Origin: Tribonema minus
Lineage: Eukaryota > Sar > Xanthophyceae > Tribonematales > Tribonemataceae
NCBI GenBank assembly: GCA_017506865.1
Contig: JAFCMP010000542.1
Location: 1-64,000 of the forward strand
Length of the DNA stretch: 64,000 nt
Reading direction: 5' to 3'
Shown here: one piece after another, positions 16,487-57,175 of the stretch
How the letters are laid out: each line of letters starts with the position of its first letter
Position numbering within the stretch: the stretch's first letter is position 1
The notes under the pieces: model-generated
Database searches by the model: none
What the model saw: the letters and a program-made list of their open reading frames with translations, nothing else
Told to the model about the DNA's origin: nothing
Position numbers and translations under genes: made by a program

Positions 16487-19400
16487 GCTGCTGCCGCCGT
16501 CGCTGCTGCTGCTGATCGCTGCCGCTGCTGCTGCAAACAGGCTGGGAGGACGCGGCGCGCGGCTGCGACTACTGCCTGCATGTCGCCTCGCCCTTCATCC
16601 TCAACGTCTCCGACGATGACGCAGACACCCTGATAAAACCGGCCGTGGACGGCACCCTCAGGGTCCTGGGCGCATGCGCCGCCGCCGGCACCATAAAACG
16701 CGTCGTGCTGACGTCGAGCATCGCTGCCATCATTGCGGGCTGGGAGCCGGAGGCCGGGAAAGAGCTGCAGGAGCCGGAGACGCACTGGTCGGTAGCGGAG
16801 AAGTGCGATGCGTACAGCAAGAGCAAGACGCTCGCGGAGAGGGCGGCGTGGGACTACGTGGAGCGGAAGGCGGCAGCGGGTGAGTTGAAGTTGAGGACTG
16901 TAGCGTAATGTGGAGCGGCCACTGAGTTAAAGTGGAGGGCCGTAGTGTAGCTGGGCTTAGCGTAGCGGAAAAAGGCGGCGGGTGAGTTGAAGTTGAGGGG
17001 CGTAGCGTAATTGTACAGCAAAAGGCGGTGGCAGGCGAGCTGAAGGCAATGACCGCAGCATCAATTTGATTAAGACTGGCTGTGGAGCGGAAGAAGGCGG
17101 CGGGTGAGTTGAAGTTGAAGACCGCGGCGTAATTGTGGAGCGAAACGGCGGCGGTTGAGTTGAAGTTGAGGCTGTAGTTTGTGGAGTGGAAGAAGGCGGC
17201 GGGTTTTTGAAGTTGAGGACCTCAGCGTAATTCGGATCAGCTGCGGACTGAAAGGCGGCGCGTGAGTTGAAGTTGAGGACCGCAGGGAAAAAAGGCGGTT
17301 CGTGAGTTGAAGTTGAGGACCGCAGCGTAAGCCTGATGCTTATCGGCTCTGGAGCGGAAGCAGGCGGCAGGTGAGCTAAAGCTGAGGACTGCAGCGCAAG
17401 ATCGATTTAGATTGGCATGTTTCATTTTTCGCTGCAGCAATTGCAGCTTGGATTCGGATATGTGTAGCGTTTCTCACACAACTTGAGATTCAGAACAGTC
17501 ACAGTAGGTACATGCGGGCGTCGAGCAGTGTGGCGAAACCCTGCTTCGTGCCGTGTGGCATGCACGGGGGACTCCAAATCAGACAATTGCAGTGGAAATC
17601 CTACGGTGCACGCCTGTTGTTTTGACGTACTCATACTAGCATACCCAAAGCTCTTGTGCTGGATCGATGGGGGCTTGAATTGCTGCCAGTACCACCGGCT
17701 CTGCGCTTTGAAGGCACACGCATCGCATTAATGGTGCAGTCGGGAAGCAGCCGCAGAAGTTGGTGCAATTGTGCTGAGCACTATATGATCCTCAAAATTC
17801 GCCAAGCAATTGGAGCCAGAAACTTGCGCATTACAAAGTATACTCATGCGCGCAGCTTCACTGGCCATGAGCAGCATGCACCACCAGCTGGTGTGAACTT
17901 TCTTCTGCAAGTTGCTATTGTTGGCACTCATCAAAATCTTGTGAATTTATGTCTTGTGAATTCATGGAATTCATTGGACGCACAACTGCCGTCGCCGTCC
18001 GTGAGTCACTTAGGTACTCTTCACGCCAGCGTGTTCACTGTACGTGTGGTGTGTACTGTACTAGCGCGAGCATGGGCGCTGTTCCTGTTCTTAAGTGCCG
18101 CTGGCAAACCAGGCCACGTTTAGGGTTGGGGTTAAGCGAGGGTTAGGTTGTCAGGCTGGCGCACATCCCCCATGGATTACCTGGTATTGCAGTTAAGGGT
18201 TAAAGTGCGGTTACGGTTACAGTTAGGGTTCCGGGTTAAGGGGGTTCAGGGTAGGGCGACAGGCATGCAGATTGGCCATTTGACATGCCCTTGCTCCCCG
18301 GGGGGGGGGGGGCAACTAGGCAAGAAAGCGTTCGATGGGGTCACCCTTGAACCCGGTCATCGCCCCGGCGGTCATCACCGACCTCAACTTTCAAGTTCTC
18401 CTGACCGCTCGTGCTCGTGTTTTGCATGCAGGCCAGACCGTCTTCGAGCTGGCCACCATTAACCCCGGCTTCGTCCCACACCTCTCACTCCAATTCAGAG
18501 TACCTCCACGTAGTTTGTCTGCCCTGCGAAGCATCTGTAACCGCTTTGCCGCTCGCCGGCTGCTTGCAGGCGAGAGCGTCTTTGAGCTGACCACCATCAA
18601 CCCCGGCTTCGTCATCGGCCCCGCGCTCAGCGCCAACGACGCCACCAGCTTTGACGTCGCGCGCAAGCTGCTCACGCGCGCGATGCCCGCTGTTCCGGCG
18701 CTCTCGCTCGTGATGGTCGACGTGCGCGACGTTGCGAGCGCGCACGTCGCCGCCATGACGAGCGCTGCTGCGGCAGGACAGCGCTTCGTCTGCGCGGCGG
18801 AGACGCGGTGGCTGCGCGATCTCGCGCTGAGCGTTGCCGCGCCTTTCAAGCCGCTGGGCTACAGGTGCGTTTCCCCGTGCATGTAGGGGTTCCGTGCAAG
18901 TAGGGTTAGGGTTGGTTCCAGGCGCTCACGGCTGGGTATTTCCGTGCAAGCAGGGCTTCTACGCTCTGCGTGCAAGCAGGGTTGGCTGCTCAATCTCGCA
19001 CTCAGCGTTGCTGCGCCGTTCAAGCCGCTGGGCTACAGGTGCGTCCCGCGTGCAAGTAGGGTTTGTAGGGTTTTGGGGCAACCGGTTTAGGGTTGCCGCG
19101 CCATTCAAGCCGCTGGGCTACAGGTGCGCCCCCCGCGTGCAAGTGGGGTTAGGGTTGGCTGCGTGACCTCGCGCTGAGCGTTGCCACGCCCTTCAGGCCG
19201 CTCGGCTACAGGTGCATCCCGTGTGTGTGCAAGCAGGGCTCCTGTGCAAGTAAGGTCAGGGTTAGATTTGGATACAGGTGCTGAGCGTTGCTGCCCCTTC
19301 AGGCCGCTGGGCTACAGGTGCGTCCCGTGTGTGTGCAACTTGCTGTAGGGCTTCTGGGGTTTATGTGCACGTAGGGTTAGGGTTGGATGTAAAATACAGG

Positions 19401-25229: not shown

Positions 25230-28200
25230 ATGGTCACAATGCCGGACGAGCTTGTGGAAAATGGCGCCGCCCCCAAGCACCCCGCAGTGGCGCAGCTGCC
25301 GGAGTCGGAGAGGAAACGGATACTGGTGACGGGAGGCGCGGGGTTTGTGGGGTCGCATCTGGTCGATAGGCTCATGACCCAGGGGCATGAAGGTGAGAGA
25401 GTGGGGGGATTAGTGTCGAATAGAGTCATACTTTGAAGTACGAGCTGGGCTTCTGCTGCCAGAGTCGGAGAGGAAGCGGATACTGGTGACGGGGGGGGCG
25501 CGGGGCTTGTGGGGTCCAACTTGGTTGGTGGGCTAATGACGCAGGGGCATGAAGGTGAGACAGTGAGGGGGGAGCGGAGTTGAGTCGAGGCATAGAGTCA
25601 GTCGAGTCATAGAGTTGTATGAGCGGGTTTTGTGGGGTCGCATCTGGTGGACAGGCTCATGACCCAGGGGCATGAAGGTGAGACAGACAATTTAGAGTCT
25701 ATTCCTACAGGTAGCCAAGTCGAGTTGTGGAGTCATTTGCACTGGGTTTGTGTAAGTTCCCACTTGGTCGATACACGAATGGCGCAGGGCCATCAAGGTA
25801 CATTGGTATCGATGCACATCCGTGCGCAGTGGTGCACCAATGCGCAGTGATGCGCAGTGGCAGCCGGAACAGCGTCGTCAACACTTGTTGGCCGAACGTG
25901 GTTGATGAAACTCTGCAGCGGTGCAAACAGGTCAGGGTACTTCCGCACGATTGCCTGATCTACATATAGAAGTATACGCTGCCGCTCACACGCCTATGGC
26001 CACACACCAATTCGCGTCGCGCCAGCTGTGGCGTGCTTCACGCATGATGGTGCGTATGCTGCATAGAAGTAGCTCATAAGAAGTGATTGAGCACGCACTG
26101 GCTACATGGCTCCAATGGCTGAACTTGTGATGTCTGAATCCCAAGGACGGAGCAGTCCTTTTTCGTGTGCGGATGGAAAGATGCCAGACCTGCATTCCGG
26201 TGCGACAGCGGTTGACTGCTTTGAGGCGTCTCGTGTCTCGTGTCACAGTCATGCGGCACAAACGTGATGGTGTTATGAGCGGCAGCGTATACTTCATTTT
26301 GAAGTAGTGGTTGAAGTACAAGTACTTGAAGTACGGGTGCTTGAGCTTGGCCCCCTGCCCCCCCTTCCCCCGCCCCGCTGGCTTGGACCGCAACCAGCGG
26401 CAGCGGCAGCACTCAGCATTGTTGTTTTGTGCGTGGCACGCGCATTGTTAGTGCGTCATTGGATCTCCCATTGCTGCAATGATGCTGCAGGCAGCATGCG
26501 CCATACAACTTGTACTGTAGTATTTCAACCATATATTTGATGCGAATTGTGAAATGGGCGCAATGACCGTCCACAGTGCTCGTCACTCATGCGTACATAC
26601 CATCCCATAAGCAACTTTAACTCCGATGTGTATGGTAACAACGCAGTGTTGCCAATCTCTTTCTGGCGCAGTCATCGTTCTGGACCACATGTTCACCGGG
26701 CGCAAGCAACTTCAAGTCATGTAACTTCAACAACACCTCCATGTCGCATGATGCTAACGACGCGCTATGGTCGTGCTGCTGCTGGCGCAGTGATCGTTCT
26801 GGACAACATGTTCACCGGGCGCAAGCAACCTCAAGTCCCGCAATTGTAACAACGCCTTCATGTCGCGTGATGCTAACAATGCATCAACCAGCGTGCTGCT
26901 GCTGGCGCAGTGATCGGTCTGGACAACATGTTCACCAGGCGCAAGCACCTTAAAGTCCTGTAATTGTGACAACACCTCCTAATCGCATGATGCTGACAAC
27001 GCAATTTGGGTTTGCTCTTGCTGGCGCAGTGATCGTTCTGGACAACATGTTTACTGGGCGCAAGAAGAACGTTCAGCACTGGATCGGCCACCCCCACTTC
27101 CAGCTCATCATACACGATGTGGTTGAGCCCATTATGCTGGAAATAGACCAGGTATTGCCATGATAACAGACGCACTGCAATCAATGGGTATTGTAAAGCC
27201 GACAAGTTTACGCTGTGGGAATGTTGTGCATTTCAGTTTATATTTGTTTAGACTGTTGTTGGAAAGCGTCATTCTGAAGTTGAAAAGTCTCACAGAATGT
27301 GTCATGAGTCCAGCTACTAATCTAGTATACACGATTTGGTAGAGCCCATCATGCTCGAAATAGACCAGGTATGTATGTATCGGCACCCTTACTTCCAGCT
27401 CTTTGAACTTGATGCATTCATTAGGTATTCGTTCAAGTCAGTAATTGTGTGCAACTTCCACATCATTGTACACATGGTCATCATTTGATGGTACAACCGC
27501 CACTTGCGGCCGTTGCTGTTGAGAAAAAGATTAGTGTCTACTTCCAGCTCTGTGTTTGCGACATCATGATGGTAGAGTAGAGCCCTTCGTGCTTAGATCA
27601 CGGTACTATTACTCGCAGCTCAAGTACTGTGTAAAGCAATTTCATCTGCTAGTAATTGCATGCTTGTAGACTAGGCCTTGTGGCTAGATATCAGATACTC
27701 AAAAGAATAATTGTTTTGATCCATGTACATGCGTGCGATTCGGCATGATGATGGCCGCCGAGTCTCTTGTTGTGGTCTCACCGCCTCTAGCCGTGCGTTG
27801 AGACGCCGGCACACAGGTCCTTAGGCTGACGTGAGCCGATTGGATGTTGTCATTTGCTGTTGTACGTCTGCAACAACGCTGTGAGTTGCCATGGGCATGC
27901 ACGCAATTTGGCATGCTGATAGCTGTCGGGCCTCTTATTGCGTTCTCGCCGCCTCTACCTGCATTGAGACGCCGGCAGATTAGGTTTGGCATAGGTATTG
28001 GGGCTGATGTGAGCTGATTAGGGTTAGGGTTAGGGTTAGCATTACGGCAGATTACAGTGGTATGCATATACGCAGTCTATTGGATGTATGCATCTGGGAG
28101 CACGGCAGCATCAAGCCCTTCCTATTTTCCGGTCGTTGCCACGAATGTGGGACGAGGTACAGCAGTTTGTGCAGTGTACGTGCGAGATCAGCGTGTTTGT

Positions 28201-31200
28201 AATGATTGCCATCACATCAATTCAGAGGTGAGAGAGCTCCTTACTATTGCACGCGAATCCACCACCTGCATGTTTCACATCTCAAGTTGGAGTTGGCGCC
28301 CACGATCACCAACTGTGCTGCCATGCTTCCGCAAGCCGATCTGTGTGCCCTGCACCTCAAGGTTGAAGTTGTAACGCAAGTCCAACTTGACACTCGCATC
28401 ACGATCGTGCGCTGCCGTGCCTGTGCGCGCAGACCTACCACCTGGCGTGCCCGACACCTCAATTCGAAGTTGTAGCTCAAATTGAAAACGACTCTCACAT
28501 CACCAACGCGTGTTGCTGTGCCGCTGTGCGTGCAGATCTACCATCTGGCGTGCCCGGCGTCGCCGCCGCACTACCAGTACAACCCCATCAAGACCATCAA
28601 GACGTCCACGCAGGGCACGCTCAACATGCTGGGACTCGCCAAGCGCACCGGCGCGCGCATGCTGCTCACCAGCACAAGCGAGGTACGTTTGTATGATGCG
28701 TGAAAGCAATGATGCTCAACATGCGGGGGCTTGCGCTTGGTTGGTATGCAGTGTGAGCAACGAACTGTGGCGATGCTCAATATGCTGGGGCTCGCCAAGC
28801 GCACTGGCGCGCGCATGCTGCTCACCAGCACCAGCGAGGTATGTATGTATGTATGCTGTGTGAACAACGGAGGATGGTGGCGATGCTCGACATGCTGGGG
28901 ACTTGCCAAGCGCATCGGCGCGCGCAGCGAGGCAGGTAGGTAAACTGTGCACAGACAGAGCTGTGGCAGTTCTCACAGAGGAGAGTCACACCTGCACTTG
29001 ATGTACGACCAGCATCGGTGACGCTCCAATTGTGACGTGCTGAGGCGAGCGAAGAATTGCTGCTCTTCAACACCAGCGAACCTGAAGTGTCAACTTCGCT
29101 TTTTTGTTTCCACTTTGTTTGCCCTCCATCTTAAGTTTGGTAGACATCCCCAGGACACACCTCTTCGCAAGAGTGCCCCCTCCCCGCAGCTTTCTATGTT
29201 TCCCTCTGTCCGGCCTGAGGGCCGCCACCCCCCTTTCCCCTGTGCCGCTGCCATCACTGCTATCACGCCTCCACGTCCACGGAGCGTCGACATCAACAGA
29301 GCGTCAACCTCAACATGCCTTAGCCTCAACAGTGCGTCGACCTCGACACCTGCGCCGAAATTGCCGCCAATGATGCCTCGACGATGTCTTGGTTCCAAAT
29401 TGTGAATCGCCAATCCTCATCATGCCTCAACTTCAACATCTGTGTATCCACCTCAGCATGTGTGTGCGTCAACCTCAACTAGGCCTACGGCGACCCTGAG
29501 GAGCACCCGCAGCGCGAGACGTGGTGGGGGCACGTCTTGCCTCAATTTACCATTCTCATTTTGGTGCGTCAACCTCGACATATTGAACCTCAACATTTGG
29601 TTTCAACCTCAATCAGGTCTACGGCGACCCTGAGGAGCACCCGTAACACGAGACGTACTGGGGTCACGTCAATCATCATGCCTCAACGATTTCCCATTCT
29701 CAGTGGTGCGTCAACCTCAACATTTTTAACCTCAAACGCGTGTGTGTCAACGTCAACTAGGTCTACGGCGACCCCGAGGAGCACCCGCAACGCGAGACGT
29801 ATTGGGGACACGTCAATCAGCTGGGGCCGCGCGCGTGCTATGATGAGGGCAAACGCGTTGCGGAGACGATGATGTACGCGTATCACGCGCAGGGAGGGCT
29901 TGAAGTTCGTGTCGCACGCATCTTCAACACTTTCGGCCCGCGCATGCACCCCAACGACGGCCGCGTCGTCAGCAACTTCATCATCCAGGTGAGGGGGCAG
30001 CGTTAATGAATGAGTGAATGAGTGAATGGATGAAGTGGATTCATGCATGGATGATTGAAGGTGCGATGATGGCGAGTGCATTCAGAGGTCGTAAGGTACG
30101 TGTCCCGGGTGGCAGGCAGCCTTGAAGTTCATGTGGCCAACAGTTCAACTCATTCATGCCATGCGCGCGTACTCTCTAGACATGGGCACCCTGTCAGCAG
30201 TTTCAGCGTATTGATGAACGCTGCTGCGGTGGGGCGGAACACCGTTGTTGAAGTTACGCTTCACGCGCCCCTCGCACTTGACGCACTTGAAGTGCGCAAT
30301 GAACGATCAACTTCAACATATTCAGGCGTCGCCGGGCAGTCGTACTTTGCATGCGTGCTCAGCAGCTTCATCGTCCGTATGCTGCGCTGTGACATTGCAT
30401 CAGTGGTGTGGTCGATTCCTTGTACAGCAGTCGCCGAGCGCGGATGCGGCCGCGCATGTCCGTTGCGGTGACCCTGGCTTCACCTCTGTTGTGAGCAGGG
30501 CAGCGTCCCCTTCTGGGGTACCTGGACCGCACCTTGCAGGTGTTGGGCAGTGTTGCAGCCACGCTTGCGTGTACACGCACACACACCTTTGTCCGCTTGG
30601 TGCATCAATTTCAACAAATGTCCATGGATGTTAAGATGCGGCCGTGGAAATCAGGGTGTTCAATGGCTTGAGTGCAGGCGTTGAGCGGTGATGCGGTCAC
30701 GCGCGCGTGAACCCCCCCCCAGCCCCCCCCACCCCACCCCACTTCCCTGCTCACTAAACACTCATCTGTTGTGCGCTCGTGCTGCTGCGGTTCCTTGTCT
30801 TGCGTGCCGCAGGCTCTGCAGGGGAAGGACATGACCATATATGGCGACGGCAGTCAGACGCGGTCGTTCCAGTATGTGGATGACCTCGTGGATGGCCTCG
30901 TCATGCTCATGAACTCAAACTATCGTAAGTTGAAAGCCTGGTCGTGAGAAGCATCAGTACGCCGCTGCAGTGACGCCGGAATGGCAGCAGTGGTGTATGC
31001 ACCTGCACATTCTCTGCTGCGCTGCATGTGGAGTCGCAGCACGATTTGCTTGAAGTTGGCCTTGAAGTTGGCAATCCGCATCTGCCTTGGTTTGGTGCGC
31101 ACTGCAAGGCGGTATCTTACTGCATTCGTGTATGCAAGCCGTGGCTGCGAGTGCGCATGCTCGCGTGCGCTCACTATACGTGGTGATGCTCAACTTGGGG

Positions 31201-32168
31201 AAAATGCGTAGAAAATGTCTACTCATGTGGTCTCACTCTACAAATTTAATCAAGGTATCCCGGTGTCATTGCTCAAAGCCCATTCGAAAATATAAATGGC
31301 AGCACGTCAGTGACAAGGCAGTTGTACTTTTGCAGCTGATGAGTGCATGCTATGTAGTATTCTGTAATTCAAGAAGTCATTTCTGCAGCGATGCCTGTGC
31401 ATGTGCGGGCAGCATGGCAGCAGGTGGCACCACTGATGGATGACCGTACAATACCACAGTCAGCACGCACACTGAGGCTCGGTGCCTGACTCATTTCCCG
31501 TCTTTGGGTTCAAACCTTGCATGCTGTCCCTCAAGCACCGACATCCGATTCGGTCATGAATAGTATGCTTTTCCTGTTGTTGAGATTCTGCAGTCGCTCC
31601 CCACGCTGGTCGGAGAGAGTCATCCCTACAGCCAGATTTCTTGCAGATATGGGTCAGTAGGGCATGCTTCACATATAAAGTCGAACTTCACACGGTGCCC
31701 GACGGCACTGCGACGCTTCTCCACATGCATTGTTCACGTCCCAAACTTGCAATCATACTCATGTTCATTCACCTAAAACCACACTTCTTAACTTTTATTG
31801 CATACTGCTGCACTCCCTTCCCATCACTCCCCTCACCCCCCCCCCCCTCCCCCCCCCAAAAAAAAGACCTCCCCGTCAACATCGGCAACCCCGAGGAGTT
31901 CTCCGTGAAGCAGTTTGCCACGCTCATCAAGGACCTCACGGGCAGCGCCAGCCGCATCGCGCACCTGCCCGCAACGCAGGACGATCCGCACAAGCGCAAG
32001 CCCGACATTGCGCTTGCCAAGCGCGAGCTCGGCTGGGAGCCGCGCGTGCACGTGCATGATGGACTCGCGCACACGATCGCCTTCTTCAAGGGAGTCTTGA
32101 AGTCCGGCGAGATTGTGCCGACGGGCCCCAAGGCCGTGAAGCCGGGGTTCCAGCATGGCTCCCCCTGA
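25230..32168 (+). CDS. UXS: UDP-glucuronate decarboxylase (UDP-xylose synthase), six exons
   Basis: Exons 25230-25392, 27030-27151, 28536-28682, 29761-29988, 30813-30924 and 31867-32168 join in phase to give 357 residues. The enzyme oxidises and decarboxylates UDP-glucuronate to UDP-xylose using bound NAD+. TGGAGFVG is at 34-41, [10 protein letters not shown] at 57-66, the [20 protein letters not shown] block at 98-117, TSTSE at 140-144 and the catalytic Y171/K175 in [31 protein letters not shown] and [11 protein letters not shown] are also typical. The length and lack of a transmembrane anchor resemble soluble cytosolic isoforms. An AG acceptor at 25209-25210 suggests an untranslated first exon upstream; M4 is an alternative start. 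Exons A-D are flanked by duplicated edge copies. Confidence 0.95.
25441..25800 (+). repeat. Three copies of UXS exon A end with donor
   Basis: The end of exon A (GGGGTCGCATCTGGT...CAGGGGCATGAAG|GTGAG at 25392) recurs near 25553, 25678 and 25798. The first copy starts as far back as the GTCGGAGAGGAAGCGGATACTGG block; the third is degraded (GCGCAGGGCCATCAAGGTA). The first two retain GAAGGTGAGA. Confidence 0.88.
26660..26950 (+). repeat. Three copies of UXS exon B start with acceptor
   Basis: CTGGCGCAG|T(G/C)ATCGTTCTGGAC...ACATGTTCACCGGGCGCAAGCA is found at 26662, 26782 and 26901 ahead of the real exon at 27030, with spacing 115-120 bp. Each copy covers about 40 exon bases and then diverges. 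Confidence 0.92.
27325..27600 (+). repeat. Two or three copies of UXS exon B end
   Basis: TACACGATTTGGTAGAGCCCATCATGCTCGAAATAGACCAGGTATG near 27330-27372 clearly copies the exon B end with donor. A weaker copy (CTTCCAGCTC...GACATCATGATGGTAGAG...AGCCCTTCGTGCTTAGATCACGG) lies at 27541-27602. Confidence 0.8.
28018..28039 (+). repeat. Interstitial telomere-like repeat (TTAGGG)3
   Basis: TTAGGGTTAGGGTTAGGGTTA within UXS intron B-C. Confidence 0.88.
28240..28475 (+). repeat. Copies of UXS exon C start
   Basis: GCGCAG|ACCTACCACCTGGCGTGCCCGACACC at about 28428-28460 closely copies the exon C acceptor and first 27 bases. Two weaker copies precede it (near 28252 and 28335). All are followed by CTCAA-GTTGAAGTT type sequence, so the unit is about 90 bp. 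Confidence 0.75.
28705..28935 (+). repeat. Copies of UXS exon C end with donor
   Basis: The real end (GCTCACCAGCACAAGCGAG|GTACG at 28682) is copied almost perfectly at 28772-28839 (…CACCAGCACCAGCGAG|GTATG), truncated at 28883-28936 (ending GCGCGCAGCGAGGCAGGTAG), and as a fragment near 28711-28735. Confidence 0.88.
29479..29690 (+). repeat. Two copies of UXS exon D start with acceptor
   Basis: CTAG|GCCTACGGCGACCCTGAGGAGCACCCGC at 29481 and CAG|GTCTACGGCGACCCTGAGGAGCACCCGT at 29616 precede the real exon at 29761. Spacing is 135 and 145 bp. Each copy holds about 55 exon bases. Confidence 0.92.
30345..30385 (+). repeat. Degenerate copy of UXS exon D end
   Basis: CGTGCTCAGCAGCTTCATCGTCCGTATG resembles the exon D end and donor (CGTCGTCAGCAACTTCATCATCCAGGTG). 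The match is imperfect and the donor is GTATGC. Confidence 0.5.
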
Positions 32169-41200: not shown

Positions 41201-44200
41201 GTGTTGGAGCGTGATGAGCATCACCACAGCTCTCCACTGCTGGCCTCGCCACGCCGCTCCTCGGACTACGTCAGCGACCACAACCAGAATTCAGGTATTT
41301 TTGCTTAGAGTTTTGATAATCGAAAATGATATAAAGTTCTTTCTGCTAGTACTGTACTACGTCAGCGGCTACAACCACAATTCAGGTACGACTCAGATAC
41401 ATGGTAGTCAGATGGAGGGTTCAGTACTCATAGACTTGTCGCAATGAAGGCCCAGAGAGAGACTGCGTGTCCCATGTACTCATACGATTTAGTCCTGTGC
41501 AGCAACCCAGTTTGCACTGCGCCCCAGAAGCTTGGACCCCAGTAGTTTTTGGAAGTGGCAGAAGTACCTGCTTGCTCGCCAGCGAATGCACTGTTGCTGT
41601 TTCCAAGTGTTGGTCGCTTGCGAATGCATACACCGCAGCATGCAGGCGGCGAAGCAACTGTCATTGCAGATACGGCTACCTCACTATGGCTTGGAAGCAA
41701 TGGTTGCCGATTTGAGTTTCTAAGTTTCATCTCCCATGCATTCCCGTATGCTGTGGCAGGCGCGGGTAACATCCTTATCCAGCGACCACCAGCGAACCCT
41801 AACCTCAACCTCAAGCCTTGCCCTAATCCTGGCGCTAAGACCAGCAGTGCCAGCACACACGCTCTCACTGTCAGTTCAATCCTCAACCACCGACCACCAT
41901 CATCTGTCTTTGCTCATGCCTCCGCCATGTGCCGCAGCAGGTGCAGACAGCATACATACCCCCCCCCCCCCCTCTCGCCTCATTACCCACAACCACCATC
42001 GGTTTTCAACCACCATCACCTGTCTTCCGCCATGCCTTGTCCGCGTGCCCCAGCAGGCTCGGACAGCGTACACCCTCCCCCCCCCATCACCTCCACAACC
42101 ACCACACCCATAGGTCCTCAACTGCCATCATGTACCTTCCCCCATGCCTCCCCCGCCCCCCCCCCCCCATCACCCACAGCCACCATGGGTATCTAATTGC
42201 CATTATCTGTCTTTGCTCCTGCCCCCTCCGTGTGCCGCAGCAGGCTCGGACAGTGTGCGTACCCCCCCCCACCCCCCATCACCCCCACAACTATCATACT
42301 ATGGTCCTTAACCTCCATCATCTGTCTTCCCCCATGCCTCCTCCGTGTGCCGCAGCGGGCTCGGACAGCGTACACACACCCCCCATCACCCCCGCCGCCC
42401 ACGGCCACCACGGCAGCCACGGCCACGTGCGCACGCCTAGCGCCCTCGCGCGCCTCATGCCGCACCACCTGCCGCTCGTGCACCTGCCGCACTTGAGCAT
42501 GCACGTCCACCTGCACATTCCGGACGTGCTGCCGGAGCTGCCCAAGCTCGGCGCGCAGCTCAAGCGCGCCGCCAGCACGCCCCCCAACATCGCGGTGAGT
42601 GCCTGACTCGGAGCGCTGCTGCAGGATGGTCGGTAGCATCGCTCTTATCAACTGTCATGTTGAAGATGTTGAGATCTCAGCACGCCGTGAGTGCACGCTG
42701 CACAATGTTGCAGTAAGCGCGTCTGCAGCAGCGCTCAAGCGCAGCTCAAGCGCGCCGCCAGCACGCCCCCCAACATTGCGGTGAGTGTTCAAGCAATTGT
42801 TTATCGCATGGCGCGTGTGTGGCAGCTCACTTGTGAACTGTAATGGTGAACACGTTGAAGTTCAAACAAGCTGTGAGTGCACGCCGCCCAATACTGCAGT
42901 TGGCACGTCTGCAGCAGCGCTCAGGCGCGCCGCGAGCACACCACCCAGCATCACGTCGCGAGTGTCCAAGCACTTCTGCGAGGTGTGTGTGTGTGTGTGT
43001 GTGGCAGCGCTCAGCTGCAAACTGCAATGTTGAAGTTCAAGCGAGTGCACGCCGCCCAGTATTGCAGTTAGCGCGTCCGCAGCAGCGCTCAAGCGCGCTG
43101 CGAGCCCGCCGCCCAGTCTCAATCAATAATTATAAGGCTATCAGCACTTACGAGCCCCCCCCTGCATGGCCTACATCAAATGGCTGCGGGTGGCGCTTGG
43201 CGTCATGAGACAGTCCCCCCCCCCCCCCCCTTCGATCATCATAGGAATATCATTATCACTGTCACTCTACATGCCCCAATGGCTGCAGGTGGCACTTGGC
43301 ATTAGGATAGGGCTCACCTCCCCCCCCCCCCCCCCTTCAATCATCATAGGAACAATAATCAACTGATCAGACCCCCCCTTTACACCCCAAACGTGCAGAC
43401 TGCAGGCGGCGCTTGGCGTCATCATAGGGCTCACCCCCCTTCCCCTTTGCAACCAAATCATGACAGCAATCAACTACTGACCAGACCCCCCTACGTGCCC
43501 CAAATGCTACGGCTGCAGGTGGCGCTCGGTGTCGTCACAGGGCTCACCGCCCCCTCTTCATTCAAAAAATAGAAACAATCACTAACCAGACCCCCCTACA
43601 TGCCCCCCAACGCATTAACTGCAGGTGGCTCTCGGTGTCATCATAGGGCTCATTCCCCCCCTCGCGAACGGCCTGTTCCACAACTCGCGGTCGCCGCTGC
43701 GGCCCATCGGTGCCGCCATGGTCACCGTTGGCCAGCCGTATGTGGCCATCGCGACGCTGCTTATGGCATCAAGGTACTTCAACTTGAAGAGCAGTACCTA
43801 AAGCATACATGTTGATTATTCACGCATGCTCATGGTTGTCGGGGCGGTTGCGTGAGGCGTATCCCGTCCCCCTATGGCAGCGCTCTGCTAGCAGCTCGAG
43901 TAATGGTGTGTGCTGCTCATGGCATCCAGGTACTTCAACTTGAACATCAGTCAGTATCTGAAAGCACACATGATGGCAATTGCGCACGCTCATGGTCGTC
44001 TGGGGGGCGGTTGCGTAAGGCCTTACCCTGACCCTGAGATGGCAACGCTAGCAGTTCGTGTGATGGTGCATGCTGCGCACGACTGGAGAGAGGCAGTAGA
44101 ACACGCGCGCTTGATGGGGGAAAAAATGTGCACAAGGACCATTCACTGGGTGACAGTTTGCCATTTTACGTACCTCTCTTTGGTGCAATCACTGGTTGAC

Positions 44201-46734
44201 AGTTTACCATCTACACAACTCTCTATGGTGGAGCTTAGTATAGGTACCTGTTGGTTGGTAAATATGTGTTGCTGCGCTTTGCAGGAGTACAATGATGTTT
44301 GACTACATAGTCTGTACTTGTGCAGCCCTCCTCATGGCTTCCAAGTACAAAGTTCAGCTTGAGATTCTAGAGCATACCTCTAAACATCACATCATACATG
44401 ATGATGTCTGCCGACTTGGTTGAAATGAGTGTGCTCGCAAGCGTATGCTTTGAGTAATAATCTACGGCCTTGTGATGTGGGCGCCACCTTCAGTCATGCT
44501 TTTCATATGCATGATTGCCACCTTCAACCCCACGATGTTTATATTTGACATTATGGTTGAACATTGACAACATTGGTGCAACCAACCGTGACTTACCCGT
44601 TGCCTGCAGTCCCTGAAACCAACAGTGCAAATGTCATCATACTCACTGTACCTATTTGGCATTTTTTGGTGCTGCTGCAGCCTTGCTCAGTCGCGGAAGA
44701 ACGCAGCCCTCCCAACGCCCACGGTTGTAGGAACCGAAGGTAAGCCTGCCTGATGCTGCAACAGCGCATGCTTGAGATATCGCAATTCAAGTACGCCCAA
44801 GATTGCTTGGCAAATGAAAGCAGCAATTGCAGCAAGAAAGAAATTGTCAAATGTGTCCTTGTTGCCAACTTGCAGCACACTGATGGGGGCGACTGTGCTC
44901 AGCAGTGTTGGCTTGTAAAATGCGGATTGTGACCATGTTTTGACACAGTGCTCATCTGCATGGGCGCGCGCTGAGCATCATCTTCGGTAGCCCGTGTCGC
45001 CAAACCCCAACCCTGAGACCTCCCCTCTCTGTGATCATCGGACCTCACGACTTTGCCTGAATAGCAATGCGATACTGCGTGCAGTGCTTAATCAGGAAAA
45101 AGGCACGCAGCTCCGCGTCGCTGAGGGGCTGGGTGCTCAGTGCTAGCTCACGTCAACAACGCTCAACAACCTCATGCGAATTTGCGCAGCATCACAGCAA
45201 CCCTCTGCTGCCATGAAACACACTCCCGCCGCCCCATTGCTGAGTAATGGGTGTCAGTGCTGCTGCTATGCGCCATGTTCCTCTGCTGAGCAGCGATGGA
45301 CTTTTCACCATGTACGCACCGTCCCCGTTGCTGAGCAGTGCCCAGCGAAATGTGGAAGCTAGTGCTGCTGCTATTAACCATGTTCCCTCTGTCACATTGC
45401 TGAGCATTGATGGACGCCGTGCAGCTCCACAGCGCTCAGCAAGACCAGGCTGCCATTCACCATGTTTCCGCCGTCACTTTGCTGAGCCTTGATGGACGCC
45501 ACAAGGGATGCGACTGCTCATCAATCATGCTTCCTCTGTCACTTTACTGAGCCGCAGGAGCAGGCTGTTATTAAAACCACGTTCTCTCCGTTACTTTGCT
45601 GAGCAGTGATGGACGCAGCGCAGCTCCACAACGCTCAGCAAGAGCAGGCGCGGCGCGAGAAGATAACGATGCTGGTCCTCGTCTTCTGCCCGCTGGTGGT
45701 GGTGCCCATGCTGGGCTTTGGCATCTTTGCGTTCCTGGACAACTACACGCCTATACTCAACAGCGCGACACCACTCATGAAGCTGCTCATCATCTTCCAG
45801 GTGAGATGGCAAGCATGGTTTGCCAGTGATATGCACTTCAATGGTGCTACTTCAATGTTGAGGTGAATGGTTGAGATGCTCAACAGCGCGAGCGCGACGC
45901 CCCTCATGAAACTGCTCATCATCTTCCAGGTGACTACTACTTCAATGTTGAGGTTGATGGTTGAGATCTTCAACAGCGCGACGCTGCTCATGAAGCTGCT
46001 CATCATCTTCCAGGTGAAGTCACATCTGCACTTTTCATTGCTACTTCAAAGTCGAGCACTTTAACAGTAATATTTCGATGTTGACGCTCATGAATGAGAT
46101 GATCAATAGCGCGACGCCGCTCATGAAGCTGCTCATCATCTTCCAGGTGAGATTGCAAGCGCGCTTTGCTACTGTTACTTCGATGTTCACTTTACCAGTA
46201 CTACTTCAATGTTAAGAGTCCTGGGTGAGACCCCTCAACAGCGCAACGCCGCCTATGAAATTCCGCTCATATTCCATGTGCCATTGCAACTGCACCTCAA
46301 CAGTACTGCTTCGTTGAGGCCTGTGTAAAGACAATTTCATGGTAAAGACTTCAATGTTGAGATTCATGGACCGGGACCCTGGAAAGTGCGATGCGCCTCA
46401 TGAAGCTGCTCGCCATTCTCCAGGTGAGACTGCTGCCTCAAAAGGGCAGTGCCCAGATATTCCGTACTTGATTCATTCTTGCCTGAGGGGCACAAAACCC
46501 TGCATCGTGTGACAAAGTGTCTCAACGCGCATTTACGTTAGCTTCACTTTTGAACTTTGCACCGCACACGTGCAGCTGGGCATGCCCTCGGGCCTCTCAG
46601 TCATCATCAGCCTGTCGCAGATGCACCTGCCGGCGATGGCCTCCTCCCTCGCGCGCATGTACATGTACCAGTACCTGTTGAGCATCATCACCCTCACCGT
46701 CCTGGCAGCGCTCACCATGGCCTACATCTACTGA
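35264..46734 (+). CDS. PIN/PILS-type membrane carrier (auxin efflux carrier family), twelve exons
   Basis: Exons 35264-35336, 35538-35638, 37432-37590, 38517-38634, 39455-39637, 39779-40128, 41159-41294, 42356-42594, 43625-43773, 44681-44739, 45607-45800 and 46576-46734 join in phase to give 639 residues. The ATG is in ACCATGG. N-terminal helices include RLCNLVFLPAMV and the family motif NVGTIPLLYLDSLC (second half-site), then a helix NMIFVYLITWHLWFYSWGFF. A long polar loop (about 176-453) follows, with clustered histidines (DEHHH near 346; HGHHGSHGH at 388-396; further HH, HVHLH). C-terminal helices carry VALGVIIGLIPPLANGLF, GQPYVAIATLLMAS, MLVLVFCPLVVVPMLGFGIF and the LGMPSGLSVIISLSQMH end typical of Mem_trans proteins. 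It likely exports or compartmentalises a small organic acid; auxin itself is not implied. Nearly every exon edge is duplicated in its intron. Confidence 0.87.
36011..36098 (+). repeat. Member of second dispersed repeat family
   Basis: GCGCAGACTAGGCTGCTGCATA...CCGGCCTCCCTTGGGGCCTTTATACATACAGG; related to 14787-14900 and 32866-32945. Inside carrier intron 2. Confidence 0.6.
36941..36970 (+). repeat. Degenerate telomere-like stretch
   Basis: ATTAGGGATAGGGTTAGGGTGAGGG in carrier intron 2. Confidence 0.7.
37137..37365 (+). repeat. Two copies of carrier exon 3 start with acceptor
   Basis: GGCTCAG|GTGTGCAAGAACG... at 37141 and GGCTCAG|GTCTGCAGCAGCATGGGCGGAGC at 37279 precede the real ACACAG|GTCTGCAGC at 37432. 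The second copy extends about 75 exon bases (to CCCCTGCTGTTTGC) and then hits a stop. All are preceded by ATGTATGCCAA(T/C). Confidence 0.9.
37621..37668 (+). repeat. Telomere-like array
   Basis: TTAGATTAGGGTTAGGATTAGGG and onward, seven mostly intact TTAGGG-like units just downstream of the exon 3 donor. Confidence 0.85.
37668..37730 (+). repeat. Copy of carrier exon 3 end
   Basis: GTGGAGCGGCTGCTGCCTGTGGAGCC(T/G)CGCCT...GGCGTAAAGGTGAT copies the last 55 bases of exon 3 and its donor. Confidence 0.9.
38805..38865 (+). repeat. Copy of carrier exon 4 end
   Basis: TTCAATGGCAGCGCTTCGCTGTGCTTTGAGTCAGTTGAG parallels the exon 4 end TTCGATGGCAGCGCTTCCCTGTGCTTTGAGTCAG|GTAAG; here the donor GT is shifted by a base change and the site looks dead. 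Confidence 0.85.
39640..39730 (+). repeat. Copy of carrier exon 5 donor region
   Basis: ATTCTAGGTATCCAAGCAATG at 39686 copies the real ATTCTAG|GTACGCAAGCAATG at 39631, followed in both by C-rich DNA and CATACA. Confidence 0.85.
40895..40990 (+). repeat. Copies of carrier exon 7 part
   Basis: GTGCAGGCGCGATGAGCATCACCACC and GGCGCGGTAAGCATCACCACCA resemble the exon 7 segment GGAGCGTGATGAGCATCACCACA. Edges are blurred. Confidence 0.55.
41345..41400 (+). repeat. Copy of carrier exon 7 end with donor
   Basis: TACTACGTCAGCGGCTACAACCACAATTCAG|GTACGA parallels GACTACGTCAGCGACCACAACCAGAATTCAG|GTATTT at 41294. The copy's donor is closer to consensus than the assumed real one, so use of either is possible. 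Confidence 0.85.
41910..42290 (+). repeat. Three copies of carrier exon 8 start with acceptor
   Basis: The block ATCTGTCTT...GCC(T/G)CCGTGTGCCGCAGC(A/G)GGCTCGGACAGCGTAC plus a C run occurs at about 41912, 42028 and 42206 ahead of the real acceptor at 42355. Spacing is about 115-180 bp. Between copies lie CCACCATC and long C tracts. Confidence 0.9.
42685..43120 (+). repeat. Copies of carrier exon 8 end with donor
   Basis: AGCTCAAGCGCGCCGCCAGCACGCCCCCCAACATTGCG|GTGAGTG at 42741-42787 is near perfect. Weaker copies are at 42690-42735, 42880-42975 and 43040-43120, each with GCAGCAGCGCTCA(A/G)GCGCGC. Confidence 0.87.
43180..43560 (+). repeat. Four copies of carrier exon 9 start with acceptor
   Basis: CTGCAG|GTGGCGCTTGGCGTCATCATAGGGCTCA-type blocks start near 43183, 43284, 43397 and 43512, before the real exon at 43625. 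Spacing is about 100-115 bp. After GGGCTCA the copies carry C runs of up to 17, where the real exon has ATTCCCCCCCTC. Confidence 0.92.
43900..44370 (+). repeat. Copies of carrier exon 9 end with donor
   Basis: GTGCTGCTCATGGCATCCAG|GTACTTCAACTTGAACATCAG at 43909-43949 copies the real end with its intron start. A weaker copy is at 44323-44360 (CCTCCTCATGGCTTCCAAGTACAAAGTTC). Confidence 0.85.
45225..45600 (+). repeat. At least five copies of carrier exon 11 start
   Basis: Blocks with TTGCTGAGCAGTGATGGACGC(A/C)GCGCAGCTCCACA and variants occur near 45235, 45285, 45328, 45395 and 45480, with CCATGTTCC(T/G)CTGTCAC between them, ahead of the real acceptor at 45606. Confidence 0.85.
45870..46435 (+). 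repeat. Five copies of carrier exon 11 end with donor
   Basis: AACAGCGCGACGCC(A/G)CTCATGAAGCTGCTCATCATCTTCCAG|GTGA recurs at about 45930, 46013, 46147, 46276 and 46420 (donor positions) after the real one at 45800. The first three and the last keep CAGGTGA; the fourth has decayed to CCATGTGCC. Confidence 0.93.
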
Positions 46735-48071: not shown

Positions 48072-51000
48072 ATGAGTGCAGCTTGTACGGCGGCCATCGC
48101 TGCGGCCATCGCTGTGCTCGTCGCCGTGACCGCCGCAGCGGAGCTGAACGATGCGCGCAGCGGCTCATTTGTGTTTAGCCGCGTGCTAGCAGGTGAGCGT
48201 TGAACAGCGCACAGGAAACACGTTTTGTTGAAGTGATTGTGAATGATGAAGCACACCTGCGTTTTTGCAGTGCTTCTGCTTTGTAACAGAGACTCAAGCG
48301 TAGTCATCTGAAATATCAGGTTCAACATAGTTCGTCATTTGTGGAACTGTGCCGTTAGTGTTCGGCTCCGTTTTTGCGCTGCAAGCATGCCTCAGCTGTA
48401 CGGCATGTCAGGCAATCTTGTCACCATCATCATGGTGCCACCGAAGCATCATACGCATGAGATGGTCTTTTTCAAAGCTTCGCTTTCAATGCTGCACAGT
48501 ACTGGTGCTAGCATTGAATTCAAATTAGCAGCAGTTCAATACTGTGCACAAGCGGCCTGCACAGCGCATCAACAGATACCTTTCACGTCAATCTGTTGGC
48601 AGCCTTGCCCTACTGTAGCTCCTCGGTAGATATGCGCGAGGTCACTTGCTGAACCCATTGGTGAATTTCAATTTTCGATTCAATGTCAACAACATTGGGT
48701 TGCCTTGCCCTGCTGTAGCTTTTGGTATTGTGCACAAGGGCCAGCTCTTGAGGCCATCGGTTCTGCAACAACTTGGTCAATGTGATACTGCCACATGGAA
48801 ACACAGCAGTCAACCGCAGGTGCAAGTCTCCTCACTCGCTGTTGCATGGATTTTCTGCGAATTACATCCTGTAGGAACGGCTACCATAGGGTAGCTAAGT
48901 TGAAGTACGGGTCACCCTTTTTACACATCCATTGATTTATTGCGATTTATTATAGTCCGGATTATTTATGAGGCACCGTATGTTGCGACAAGAGTCTTTC
49001 CAACTTTCCTCAGTAATGCACAGTCATCACTGCCTTATCCATCATCTACCACAGATTCCAGGCAGCGCCTAGCTCTGGGTTTGTCTTCGAGTTAAATTAC
49101 TTGGTGGGACTCTTTTGCCTAACTTCCGACAATCCACCGCTGAACGCGTTGCAGCACGCACAAATATTGCGATTCACGCCGCCAGACGTATCATCGTCCA
49201 CGCCTTGGGTGACTGCATTGCGCACCTTGCAGCGTGACCGCGACCTCAGTTCCCCTCAGTCACCTGCGCTAATCAAAATTGCGTCCTCTACGCGGCACGG
49301 CGTCGTCGCTGCGGCTGAGCGCTGTGCAGCGCCGTGCAGCATTGCTCAACGTTGTGCAGCAGCGAGCAGTGCTGTTCAGCACCGCAGCGCGTCGCTGTCA
49401 CCGCAGCCTTTGCCACCTTGTCTCAATTGCTGAGCACCACTTCAATTGCACGTTGAAGTACGCTTGAAGTTCTTGAAGTACTTGTCGATTGAGCACCACA
49501 ACAAGGGGGTTACAGAAGTGCGTGCCAGCCGTTGGGTGCTATATTGCAGTCAGCGGTTTGCGAGGGCAGCATTTCTCGAGCGTTGCTTCCTCAGGTTCCT
49601 CATACTGTAGTTCTCCCACAGCAATCACCCTGAAAACATGTATTCACAATGTCTCAATCCCACACGCATGCGGCATAGCCCCGAGCAGCATCAAGCAGCA
49701 GCAGGAACTGCTTCAAGCGTACCGCAGGCCTGTATATATCATCAGTACTCACAAAGTTCAATTTCATCCTACCTGCAGCAGAGCGCCGTGCAGCATCTAG
49801 CAGCAGCAGAGGCTGCTACAAGTGCACCGCCGGCAGGTGTAAATTATCAGTACTCACAAAGTGCAATTCTCTGGCAGGTGTATATCATCAGTACTCACCA
49901 AGTTCAATCCTCCCATGCATGCAGCAGACCGCTGCGCAGCATCGAGCAGCAGCAGGGGCTGCTTCACGCGCACCGTCGGCATGAATATACATACCACTAT
50001 CATCAAATTGAAAACACACAAAGTTCATTTCCATCCTACATGCAGCAGAGCGCCGCGCAGCATCGAGCAGCAGCAGGGGCTGCTTCAAGCGCACCGCTAA
50101 ATAAATACTCACACAGTCCAATTCCTACCTACGTGCAGCAGCATCGAGCAGTGGCAGGGGCTGCTTCAAGCGCACCGCCGGCCGTGGCGTGGGCACAACA
50201 CTCAGTGCCTGCCCCGACTCTGCGCCGCACAACGAGGCGGGCCTCTGCTACAGCGCTTGCCCCGACGGTTACACGGGGGTGGGGCCGCTCTGCTTCCCGG
50301 GCTGCCCGGACGGGTTCACGGACATCGGCGCGTTCTGTGAGTGGCAAAACGTAACTGACGTAGCAGATTTGATTTTGCTTGCTGGCTTCCATGTATGGTT
50401 TGGTGTGGCCACAAGATGCCTTGCGTGTTGTGAGTGGCGAAACCGACGTAACTGACGCGGCAGATTGTATTTTGCCTGCTGCCTGCCACGAATGGGTTCG
50501 TGTGAGGTATGAGGCGCTTTCACCTGCATTGATCTTCTTTTGCAATGTTTTGGTGTGGAAGGCTGCAAGCCATACTTTCAAGGTAGCGGCTCAAGCTTTG
50601 AACGACAACTTTCTGAACATAAGTACGGCCTGGCACGCAGCAGCACAAATGAGAGTCCGAGTCACACTCTTAAGTGCCTCTGATTCAGTGGCTCGGAGTC
50701 TGTGGCGGTCTGCAACACTTCCCTGATGTGCAACTGTCAGTGCACACCTGTATGGTCACAGTCAATGACAAAACGCTCAAGCAGAATGATAGTGTCTGAG
50801 CTCGAACCCTACTCTCAAGTTCAAGTTGTGAGCGCTGACGCCCCGCCAACCCCCCCTCCCTCCCCTCCTCCCTCTGCCAGGCTTGTTTGTACTCTGTTCC
50901 CTCGTGCACGACGCTCACTGCAACTTCAACTTTAAGTTGAAGATGTGAGCCCGGACCCCCCCCCCCCACCCCACCCCCTCCTTCCCTCTACCAACCTCGT

Positions 51001-53328
51001 TTCTCTCTCTGTCTGCTTGTGCGCGACTCGCACTTCAACTTCAACTTTAAGTTGAAGATGTGAGCCTGGACCCCCACCCCCCCACCCCCCCCCCTCCTTC
51101 CCTCCACCAAGCTTGCTTGTCTCTCCGTTCGCTCGTGCGCGACGCTCACTGCCCGCTATCTCACACGCAACGCCGCCGCCGCCTCCGCTCCCCCCAGGCC
51201 AGAAGCCGCCGCCCTACGGCAGGGGCAGTGGCTACGCCTGGGACCCCTTCAAGGACGGCGTCAACTTGAACTTGGATGGCGCGGTTGAGCGCTGCAACAG
51301 CGACAGCGGCGGCGACGGCGCCTGCGAGACGTGCCTGGCCATGGCGTACCCCAAGTGCGCCCCCTCGTTTCAGGCGTTTGGCTGTAATATGTGTTCGCCA
51401 GAGTGTCCGGATGGGGGGGTTGACACCGGCAGTGGCTGCGCTAAGGACACGGTCAATCGCACGGTGTCTGCTATGGTGTGCGAGCCCGGGCAGGAGCAGG
51501 ACGGGTTGCTGTGCTATCCGCAGTGCGACGGCGGCAGCAGCGGCATTGGGCCGCTGTGCTGGCAGGTACGGTTTGTGACCGTTTCGGTAGTGTACATAGC
51601 GCAGGTGTTCCATTGCGGTCACAAATATGCATAGGACCACACGCTTGACATGAGCACAAGAGTTGCATACTTTGCATTTCTCACAAGGATTCCGCCCGTC
51701 AAGCGGGAGTAAAGACAGTACGATGTGTACATTTGTGTGCGCATGTCGCGTGCATGTGCGTGTGTGCCTGAAGCCTCCTAAAGATGGGTACTTGATGATG
51801 TCAGCTTGATGGCCCTCACTAGTCAAGTGCAGATGCCACAGAGGGAACGGACGGCTGGTTTTATATCATTGCAGCTTTGACTGATGTTCCATGCAAGCCT
51901 CTACAGTAGTACTATGCTGAGAGAGAGTTCTATAGTGCTAGCATCAGTGTTTGGTAAGTTACGTACGGTTCACTGACACCGGGTCGTGAAATCGCTGCAA
52001 CTGCAGGGGAGCTGTGAGAGTGACGCGGAACACTCCACAGACTGCGGCCCGTTCTGTGCACGTTCCTCAGAAGACTGCGCCTTCCTCACCGCAGAGCTGG
52101 CCAAGCTTGGCTGGGACACTACGCAGGTATGTAAGGCCGAACTGAAGCTGGCGTTGAAGTTGTTTCCACATGTGTACTATGATTACACAAGACTTGTATG
52201 CACCAGCAGCTTCAGCGCTTCTTTCTGGTTCTGCAGCAGTTGCAAAACTGCCATCCGCAGTCTGCAGCACGAGTCCCGTTCATGGCTTCTGAATGCAGGT
52301 TGCTACTCTCCTGCACAGTCCTGGAGCTTTCTTTAGCGCGTACCGAGGCTGCGCACTGATTTGGTACCTCGCACGTTGAGGCTGGATGCCTGCTGAGCGC
52401 TGCTGCACCTCATCTGAATCAACAATACCTACTGCTGCTGGCCCTGGACCGCAATCCTACAACGAACGCCTATGCTCTGAGACAGCTTGTGAGCGCGATC
52501 CGTAAACGTCGGTCACCCCTGCAAACTGGCTGTCCTAAATGCGCGGTCACCCCCTCCCTTTTACTACCATGAGGCTTAGGTTTAGGAGTTGTGCCTGTGC
52601 TGTGCCCCACAGTCGACATCACGCGCAGCACGACTAGACGGGGGAATTCAGTGCCCCGTGATCTACTGTATTTAGGGTTAGGGTTAGGCTTGGGGTTAGG
52701 GTTAGGGTTGTTCTGTGCTTCACAGTAAACATCCCGCGTCTGCGCAGCGCCTGCTACTTATGCCCGGCAGGCGCATCTGGGCGTCATTGGAACTGTTGCC
52801 ACGTCGACAGTGCCCAGCGGTGCAGTGCGCTGGAGGCATGATGTGACGAGGGAACTTACTGAGCCATTGACAGTCATCATCACGTCAGCAGTTGACAAGT
52901 GCAGCATGGGCTGTTGCATCACATGGAAATGCGGCTCCCAGCTGCTATGGTGGCATAAAAGGGGGTACCAGTACTTCTATGCTTCACTTCTCTGCTGATC
53001 CTTACCCACGTCTACCCGAATGCCGTCAGCATTAGATCATGCACGAAAGACGGGATTAGAGTTAGGGTTAAGATTAGAATGCTGTCACTCCACGCACGCT
53101 GCGCATCCCTCCCGCCTACATGACCATGCAGCCTCACGGTGTACGACTCGTTTTGCGTTACTCTGCCAGGCGGGCATATCGGGCGTCGCGTGCGCCGCCG
53201 CCTCCGCAGCAACGCTCGGCGCAGCGGCCATGTGCTGGGCCACTATCGGCGCAGGCGCAGCGGGCGACGTGGCTGGCGCCTGGCACTTCCTCATGGTCAC
53301 CATGGACGGCATGTGCGCCAGCGCATAG
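48072..53328 (+). CDS. Secreted cysteine-rich protein, five exons
   Basis: Exons 48072-48192, 50139-50336, 51198-51565, 52007-52126 and 53170-53328 join in phase to give 321 residues. Residues 1-22 look like a signal peptide (AIAVLVAVTAAAE). After RGCFKRTAGRG come repeated units of the form C-x3-C-x-D-G-(Y/F)-x-(G/D)-(V/I)-G-x-x-C (ACPDGYTGVGPLC, GCPDGFTDIGAFC, ECPDGGVDTGSGC, QCDGGSSGIGPLC) with a YGRGSGYAWD segment between. Exon 4 has CGPFCARSSEDC. The end is Ala/Gly-rich and hydrophobic (VACAAASAATLGAAAMC). Many cysteines suggest disulfide bonds outside the cell. I recall GLCY...GVGP.C repeat proteins of unknown role in stramenopiles, but assign no function. Exon 2 has a NAGNAG acceptor (50138 or 50141). 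Confidence 0.75.
49680..50138 (+). repeat. Four or more copies of cysteine-rich gene exon 2 start
   Basis: GCAGCATCGAGCAGCAGCAGGGGCTGCTTCAAGCGCACCG appears at about 49684, 49791, 49937 and 50057 ahead of the real exon at 50139, with spacing of about 80-145 bp. Spacers share TATCATCAGTACTCACAAAGTTCAAT. Confidence 0.9.
50337..50475 (+). repeat. Duplicated donor region of cysteine-rich exon 2
   Basis: The intron start GTGAGTGGCAAAACGTAACTGACGTAGCAGATTTGATTTTGC at 50337 is repeated as GTGAGTGGCGAAACCGACGTAACTGACGCGGCAGATTGTATTTTGC at 50430, about 93 bp on. Confidence 0.9.
50830..51180 (+). repeat. Two copies of the exon 3 acceptor region, 110-bp unit
   Basis: Units with CCC-rich tract, CCTCTGCCAGGCTTG/CTACCAACCTCG, CGTGCGCGAC(G)CTCACT and the palindrome CTTCAACTTTAAGTTGAAG end near 50945 and 51057; the third unit ends in the real acceptor at 51197. 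Confidence 0.85.
52672..52710 (+). repeat. Telomere-like array
   Basis: TTAGGGTTAGGGTTAGGCTTGG then GGTTAGGGTTAGGGTTG, about six units in the intron between exons 4 and 5 of the cysteine-rich gene. Confidence 0.87.

Positions 53329-57134: not shown

Positions 57135-57175
<41 letters not shown>

Follow-up and report, generated by a model that had tools for sequence, protein, structure and literature searches.

Background

In the RdRp gene of potato, a tandem duplication has been described that spans the boundary between an intron and an exon (Ma, Lan and Niu 2016, PMC4974935). The copies found here in Tribonema minus are similar, in that the duplicated stretch straddles a splice junction and brings splicing signals along, whereas the potato duplication is reported as a single case that gave rise to a new intron, and in T. 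minus many edges and genes are affected, often by several decayed copies, inside existing introns. An earlier reading made from the sequence alone (the sequence-only reading) had found no described class that fits exactly; given the potato case, this was too strong. The new introns of Daphnia are associated with direct repeats, attributed to staggered double-strand breaks (PMC4202315). In both systems direct repeats would be traces of local repair that happens again and again and makes introns longer, but in Daphnia repeats of 4-12 bp shared with the adjacent exon are reported to mark new introns, while the exon part of the copies here was mostly about 10-110 bp. The copies also resemble the decoy exons of intron retention (PMC12017769, PMC8706089), which are intronic lookalikes of exon edges with usable splice sites; the present copies, by contrast, stem from parts of exons of their own gene, and any regulatory role for them would be hypothetical.

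Intron gain by AGGT duplication likewise starts from a local tandem duplication whose copies provide the splice signals. There a duplicated exon segment becomes a new intron, whereas here the copies hold exon/intron junctions within an intron; by eye, the inspected copies consisted of exon bases followed by intron bases and not by the next exon. Minisatellite-like intron repeats form head-to-tail arrays with units of approximately 100 bp, as was the case here, but most arrays in T. minus touched exon edges and contained exon sequence. As in tandem genomic duplication, the copies were local and direct, and the duplicated unit was contiguous with its intron flank. Among the matches listed for open-licence literature, no report of recurrent, edge-biased copies of exon edges in introns was found. 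What sets the copies apart from known cases is that they recur, are numerous, are anchored at donors as well as acceptors, and persist in existing introns.

Copied exon edges in the UXS and reductase genes

The window, which is the whole stretch of 64,000 nt analysed at the start of one contig, was studied together with the genome (158.18 Mb in 554 contigs). BLAST self-comparison of the window revealed 77 direct and 0 inverted local repeat pairs (less than 3 kb apart). Two genes were identified by homology, one similar to DFR/cinnamoyl-CoA reductase (the reductase) and the other encoding UDP-glucuronate decarboxylase (UXS), the exons of the latter being placed by phmmer homology to human UXS1 (4gll) and then by GT/AG reading (Table 1).

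Direct copies in the adjoining intron were found for 6 of the 10 internal exon edges of UXS (A donor, B acceptor, B donor, C acceptor, C donor and D acceptor) and for three edges of the reductase (exon 2 donor, exon 3 acceptor and exon 3 donor). Among the more than 20 edges in four genes that the sequence-only reading had counted, these nine edges in two genes were recovered; in the other two regions, which it had called carrier and cysteine-rich, arrays were present with no homolog to place edges, neither region giving a homolog in forward-frame Pfam searches and the carrier region (36-46 kb) likewise giving none in a PDB search. Its observation of several copies per edge held, for example, for the reductase exon 2 donor with approximately eight. 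At the reductase exon 3 donor, five of the six clear copies retained GCTACAG/GTGC and the sixth read GGCTACAG/GCAAGT; two weak copies were present besides these.

Table 1 Exons, intronic copies of exon edges and repeat arrays in the window
Feature	Position	Strand	Evidence
Reductase (DFR/CCR-like) exon 2, start approximate, donor GCAGCGG/GTGAGT (bar after GCAGCGG)	16546..16879	+	phmmer; sequence
About 8 intronic copies of reductase exon 2 donor, with about 20 exon bases, GTGAGT and about 29 intron bases	16964..17399	+	sequence, BLAST
Intronic copy of GCAG and start of reductase exon 3, 88.7%	18423..18475	+	BLAST; sequence
Reductase exon 3, donor TACAG/GTGCGT (bar after TACAG)	18570..18864	+	sequence; frame joins exon 2
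Six clear intronic copies of reductase exon 3 end and donor	18993..19529	+	sequence
UXS exon A, 3' part, donor AAG/GTGAGA (bar after AAG)	25302..25392	+	phmmer to human UXS1 4gll; splice-site reading
UXS exon A end with donor, copied twice in the intron, 25462-25570 (85%) and 25623-25686 (94%)	25462..25686	+	BLAST; whole-genome DNA search
Intronic array (period 119 bp) of 3 copies of acceptor CAG with the opening ~35 bp of UXS exon B, continuous with exon B itself	26657..27064	+	TRF, BLAST, sequence reading
UXS exon B	27030..27151	+	phmmer; splice sites
Intronic copy of UXS exon B end and donor (GTATGT)	27327..27372	+	BLAST, 91% over 46 bp
Intronic copy of acceptor side and start (~22 bp) of UXS exon C	28345..28456	+	BLAST
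UXS exon C	28536..28682	+	phmmer; splice sites
UXS exon C end, copied twice in the intron; AGCGAG/GTATGT (bar after AGCGAG) retained in the first copy	28775..28926	+	BLAST; sequence reading
Two intronic copies of acceptor AG and first ~59 bp of UXS exon D, in-frame TAA in one	29423..29680	+	BLAST; sequence reading
UXS exon D; on the donor side, intron match weak (62%)	29761..29988	+	phmmer
UXS exon E; copies at neither edge	30813..30924	+	phmmer; edge copy search
UXS last exon, acceptor position approximate; without copies	31868..32168	+	phmmer; edge copy search
Carrier region, arrays of local direct repeats; no exon edges placed	37122..46433	.	TRF, BLAST
Cysteine-rich region, arrays of local direct repeats; no exon edges placed	49640..51152	.	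TRF, BLAST

When the UXS exon A edge was searched against the 158 Mb, the best candidates scored comprised three places, the exon itself and two places in its own intron. This result for one edge argued against introner elements and, together with the lack of dispersed or inverted copies, against a retrocopy or transposon, in agreement with the earlier view of local copying without retrotransposition.

Outside the two genes, a 7.28-kb sequence occurred as an inverted pair with 99.8% identity (4430-11710 and 56721-64000), and a MULE transposase domain (PF10551) was located at approximately 2784-2972, just left of the left copy; a large MULE has thus probably inserted twice in recent times, its copies flanking the genes of the window. 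Young tandem duplications near the MULE were detected by TRF at 3784-4256 and 3689-3776 (units of 235 bp and 42 bp, respectively, 97% matches), indicating that short tandem duplication occurs outside named genes too. The apparently non-genic region 32600-35800, possibly a degraded element, contained dispersed direct repeats (e.g. 33471-33511 and 33964-34004). Elsewhere in the genome, long arrays of GTAAGTGTAAGTG-type short repeats were observed at C90:851548-852869 and C179:225941-226947.

Copied exon edges in independent genes

An independent gene set was obtained by whole-genome Pfam searches for CCT/Cpn60 (56 matches) and kinesins (132 matches), from which 21 regions were taken. Four truncated blocks, themselves copies, were removed by hand before introns were solved between profile-adjacent exon blocks and refined by splice sites and reading frame. 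Fifty introns were solved and one pair was left unsolved; 43 introns from 16 loci were kept at a score of at least 3.5 and 7 were dropped.

BLAST detected copies that cross the edge at 12 of 43 donors (at L044, position 4019, by a 21-bp match only) and at 15 of 43 acceptors, so that copying of both sides, as claimed for the window, applies to independent genes; 22 of the 43 introns and 11 of the 16 loci had at least one such copy. Queries restricted to exon bases (-60 to -8; UXS included) found copies at 30 of 96 edges versus 1 of 96 when reverse-complemented, which, together with the repeat pairs of the window, bears out the direct orientation reported earlier. These queries yielded 73 copies, in 66 of which the junction was placeable. 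Exon-edge copying is real and extends beyond the window.

The copies lay in the adjacent intron in direct orientation, with a typical period of about 90-270 bp. They contained the splice site together with exon sequence, mostly some 10-110 bases long (135 in a single alignment), and intron sequence next to the site. Their aligned identities ranged from 62% to 100%, mostly 66-90%. Since they covered one edge of the exon and showed little coding constraint, duplication of whole or mutually exclusive exons was rejected, and the earlier description of partial exons was confirmed. The intron flanks of real-copy pairs aligned at 0.63-0.72 versus 0.38-0.48 for random pairs, so the duplicated units include intron DNA, and several arrays aligned through whole periods. 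A cassette model, in which only the exon edge and splice site are copied, had been suggested by a drop in ungapped identity after +6 and was dropped in view of the homologous intron flanks in gap-aware alignments.

Inspection by eye of the Pfam results revealed nine truncated exon matches sharing one end with the parent exon, on the matching side, two of which were in loci of the intron test (L039 and L046). Four of the nine came from the CCT/Cpn60 search, two from the kinesin search and one from each of three further genome-wide Pfam searches. Overlapping matches without a common end also exist, e.g. C279 near 809 kb, C4 near 336 kb and C168 near 555 kb. Gene annotation is affected by the copies, which homology searches report as extra exon fragments.

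Preference for exon edges

Recurrent tandem duplications that straddle exon edges, are tolerated and over-retained, and lengthen introns are a fairly probable explanation of these observations. Short stretches spanning an exon edge would be duplicated in tandem repeatedly, each copy arising by local tandem duplication, perhaps through slippage or microhomology-mediated repair. The duplication would be tolerated because splicing, presumably by exon definition, keeps the site on the exon body, and the extra copy would become intron. Edge copies may be over-retained partly because the exon-side copy can neither be lost nor diverge, with a further cause acting in addition; later rounds of duplication inside the array may add copies, and the net outcome would be longer introns loaded with decoy splice sites.

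Local direct copies were scored in 60-bp windows against 300 bp on each side in the 43 introns (UXS left out). The rate was 0.42 at junctions (95% interval 0.31-0.54), 0.39 at 80-349 bp inside introns (0.31-0.47) and 0.14 at 500 bp or more from both edges (0.06-0.27; 10 introns), while reverse-complement copies occurred at 0.00-0.02 at score 18. The sequence-only reading had proposed intron-internal windows as controls for the exon edges; edges stood out against the deep windows but not against those at 80-349 bp, where the high rate is read here as edge-anchored arrays extending inwards. Exons were masked to remove the bias that exon conservation introduces into array detection, and 27 arrays remained, 12 of them from the two loci L046 and L055. 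Seventeen of the 27 abutted an exon edge within 22 bp, against 2.4 expected by random placement inside the intron or 6.4 with crossing allowed; 17 was reached in 0 of 100,000 placements.

A forward simulation with conserved exons, intron-only deletions and author-chosen parameters (400 introns per setting) was compared with the observed abutting, junction, inner and deep (at least 500 bp) rates, which were 0.63, 0.42, 0.39 and 0.14, respectively. The same four rates were 0.42, 0.19, 0.31 and 0.48 under uniform duplication; 0.53, 0.29, 0.33 and 0.44 with a 2-fold edge preference; 0.65, 0.35, 0.33 and 0.35 with 4-fold; 0.67, 0.36, 0.31 and 0.18 with 8-fold; and 0.82, 0.44, 0.34 and 0.12 with 20-fold. 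Among the preferences of 1, 2, 4, 8 and 20, that of about 8-fold was the best fit, being nearest to the observed rates. By abutting alone, P was 0.02 for the uniform model and 0.19 for 2-fold, whereas 20-fold overshot (P 0.013); a 2-fold preference is not firmly excluded. Uniform duplication simulated at a smaller scale gave abutting rates of 0.30 and 0.39.

A wider alternative combines an edge-directed process tied to splicing or transcription, which copies the edges, with selection that holds the copies as a decoy set, introns growing outward from the junctions; it is tentative and rather unlikely. Junction-targeted mutation by itself, in which the edge DNA of transcribed genes is broken and re-copied more often (by R-loops, transcription-replication conflict or splicing-coupled nicking), is also judged unlikely. 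The approximately 8-fold preference that best fits the four measured rates is consistent with it, and so are the ages of the arrays, taken as the identity of the noncoding part, down to a certain age: known edges were crossed by 10 of 62 arrays at an identity of at least 85% (2.7 expected, P 3e-4), by 6 of 43 at 88% or more (2.2 expected, P 0.02) and by 4 of 32 at 90% or more (1.7 expected, P 0.09). Among the youngest arrays (at least 92%), however, 0 of 19 crossed a known edge (0.9 expected; power was low, as only part of the exons were placed and some copy-copy pairs lay inside edge arrays), which speaks against mutational targeting and leaves a bias at birth unsupported. Four apparently non-genic stretches of the window had low copy rates (0.019, 0.000, 0.042 and 0.053) against 0.27-0.42 in introns at 20-499 bp from the nearest edge, as targeting to transcribed junctions would have it; yet this sample was approximately 12 kb with its status assumed, the fifth such stretch (32.6-35.8 kb, with dispersed repeats) reached 0.165, and a molecular signature of breaks was not identified.

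If tandem duplication were uniform and random, the edge pattern would be purely a matter of survivorship, exon-side copies neither diverging nor being deleted; this model is decidedly improbable. The neutral simulation of this model missed the edge pattern, its junction/inner ratio being 0.61 (0.19/0.31) versus an observed 95% interval of 0.88-1.31 and its deep-intron rate 0.48 versus 0.06-0.27. Points in its favour are the 235-bp unit present twice at 97% near the MULE, outside named genes, the absence of edge bias in the youngest arrays, and the P of just 0.02 given by abutting alone. The claim that copies at edges exceed what uniform duplication predicts was upheld both by the count of abutting arrays and by the simulation, though not among the youngest arrays.

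Decoy splice sites in the copies

GT or AG was retained in 55 of the 66 placed copies (25 of 32 donors kept GT, 30 of 34 acceptors AG) at positions outside the query, in accordance with the earlier remark that copies often keep these signals; depletion of GT/AG was thus not seen. In the exon-only-query set, this retention (0.81-0.91) was about that of the neighbouring exon-derived bases (0.74-0.97 per base), while in gap-aware alignments GT/AG was slightly above the neighbouring exon bases (0.93 vs 0.89 for real-copy pairs and 0.88-0.90 vs 0.79 for copy-copy pairs). Strong constraint on decoy GT/AG was rejected, retention being at most slightly above that of neighbouring exon-derived bases.

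Selection that keeps the copies as decoys, pairing or competing with the real site and thereby tuning splicing or intron retention, is regarded as doubtful and, taken alone, quite improbable. It would agree with the retention outside the query, with the slight GT/AG surplus in gap-aware alignments, with the slower change of exon-derived than of intron-derived parts of the copies (see below) and with the 18 of 32 decoy donors whose scores equalled or exceeded that of the real donor. Against it, GT/AG fared about as well as the adjacent exon-derived bases in the exon-only-query set, just 7 of 34 decoy acceptors equalled or exceeded the real acceptor in score, and mean decoy scores were well below those of real sites (donors 5.4 vs 10.0, acceptors 4.6 vs 9.3).

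The simplest inference from the sequence would be that the splice site on the exon body wins over the decoys, as under exon definition. High-scoring decoy donors set in a real exon context pose splice-site choice as a sharp problem, and the genome offers a natural test bed for exon definition.

Ageing of the copies

In real-copy pairs, the 50 exon bases beside the junction were 0.78-0.90 identical, GT/AG 0.93 and the intron flank (+6 to +50) 0.63-0.72; the corresponding values for copy-copy pairs were 0.72-0.83, 0.88-0.90 and 0.63-0.70. With exons masked and substitutions only, copy-copy identity was 0.848 in exon-derived columns versus 0.735 in intron-derived columns (41 overlapping alignments, 14 introns); as distances, exon-derived change was, by our own arithmetic, approximately half of intron-derived change. 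Arrays without this difference were L039 at 4711, the L055 acceptor at 5027 and UXS at 28682. Neutral donor-side arrays simulated through identical steps gave an exon-intron difference of -0.004 to +0.029, from which it follows that neutral decay alone does not explain the copies; pipeline bias as the source of the difference was unsupported by this donor-side simulation. The slower decay of exon-derived parts may reflect weak selection on the copies, or exon-like sequence may mutate less often.

Differences unique to the real exon numbered 1, 0 and 12 at codon positions 1, 2 and 3, whereas copy-copy differences were 0.186, 0.123 and 0.192, respectively. The changes at position 3 were absent from the copies, indicating that the exon evolved synonymously without passing its changes on, which speaks against ongoing gene conversion. 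A coding function of the copies was rejected for little sign of constraint, though codon position 2 differed least. Conversion from exon to copy, by which exon-derived parts would be preserved while intron parts diverge, would suit the exon end at 5027 in L055, where the copy matches 66 of 66 exon bases and 0.66 of the intron part; with 12 of 13 real-only differences at position 3 and the copies agreeing among themselves, it is very unlikely. An assembly artefact, for which nothing speaks beyond the general risk with tandem repeats, is scarcely credible for copies that have diverged (62% to 100% identity) and recur on independent contigs.

Intron growth and short words in the introns

The median intron length was 926 bp with arrays (22 introns) and 470 bp without (21), and array spans made up 11,345 of 34,958 intron bp, about a third, in the 43 introns. 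This agrees with the earlier proposal that the duplications lengthen introns; the same length relation appeared in the simulations and is thus expected under any duplication-driven growth. The origin and lengthening of introns is an old question, most intron sequence having no traceable source. Here most arrays touch an exon edge, and intron history is readable copy by copy.

Near-palindromic ACTTCAAC/GTTGAAGT words occurred in 48 introns at about 16-21 times the Markov expectation and were also present at 21-24.8 kb and 52-54.8 kb of the window. As a duplication motif they were set aside, being intron-enriched yet found outside genes too. Among 60 matches to related 8-mers, 21 were no farther than 60 bp from an exon edge and a single one was 60-120 bp away. 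Telomere-like GGGTTAGG was strongly overrepresented and strand-biased in the 48 introns (UXS and loci L039-L058), with 33 sense and 5 antisense occurrences against 0.3 expected.
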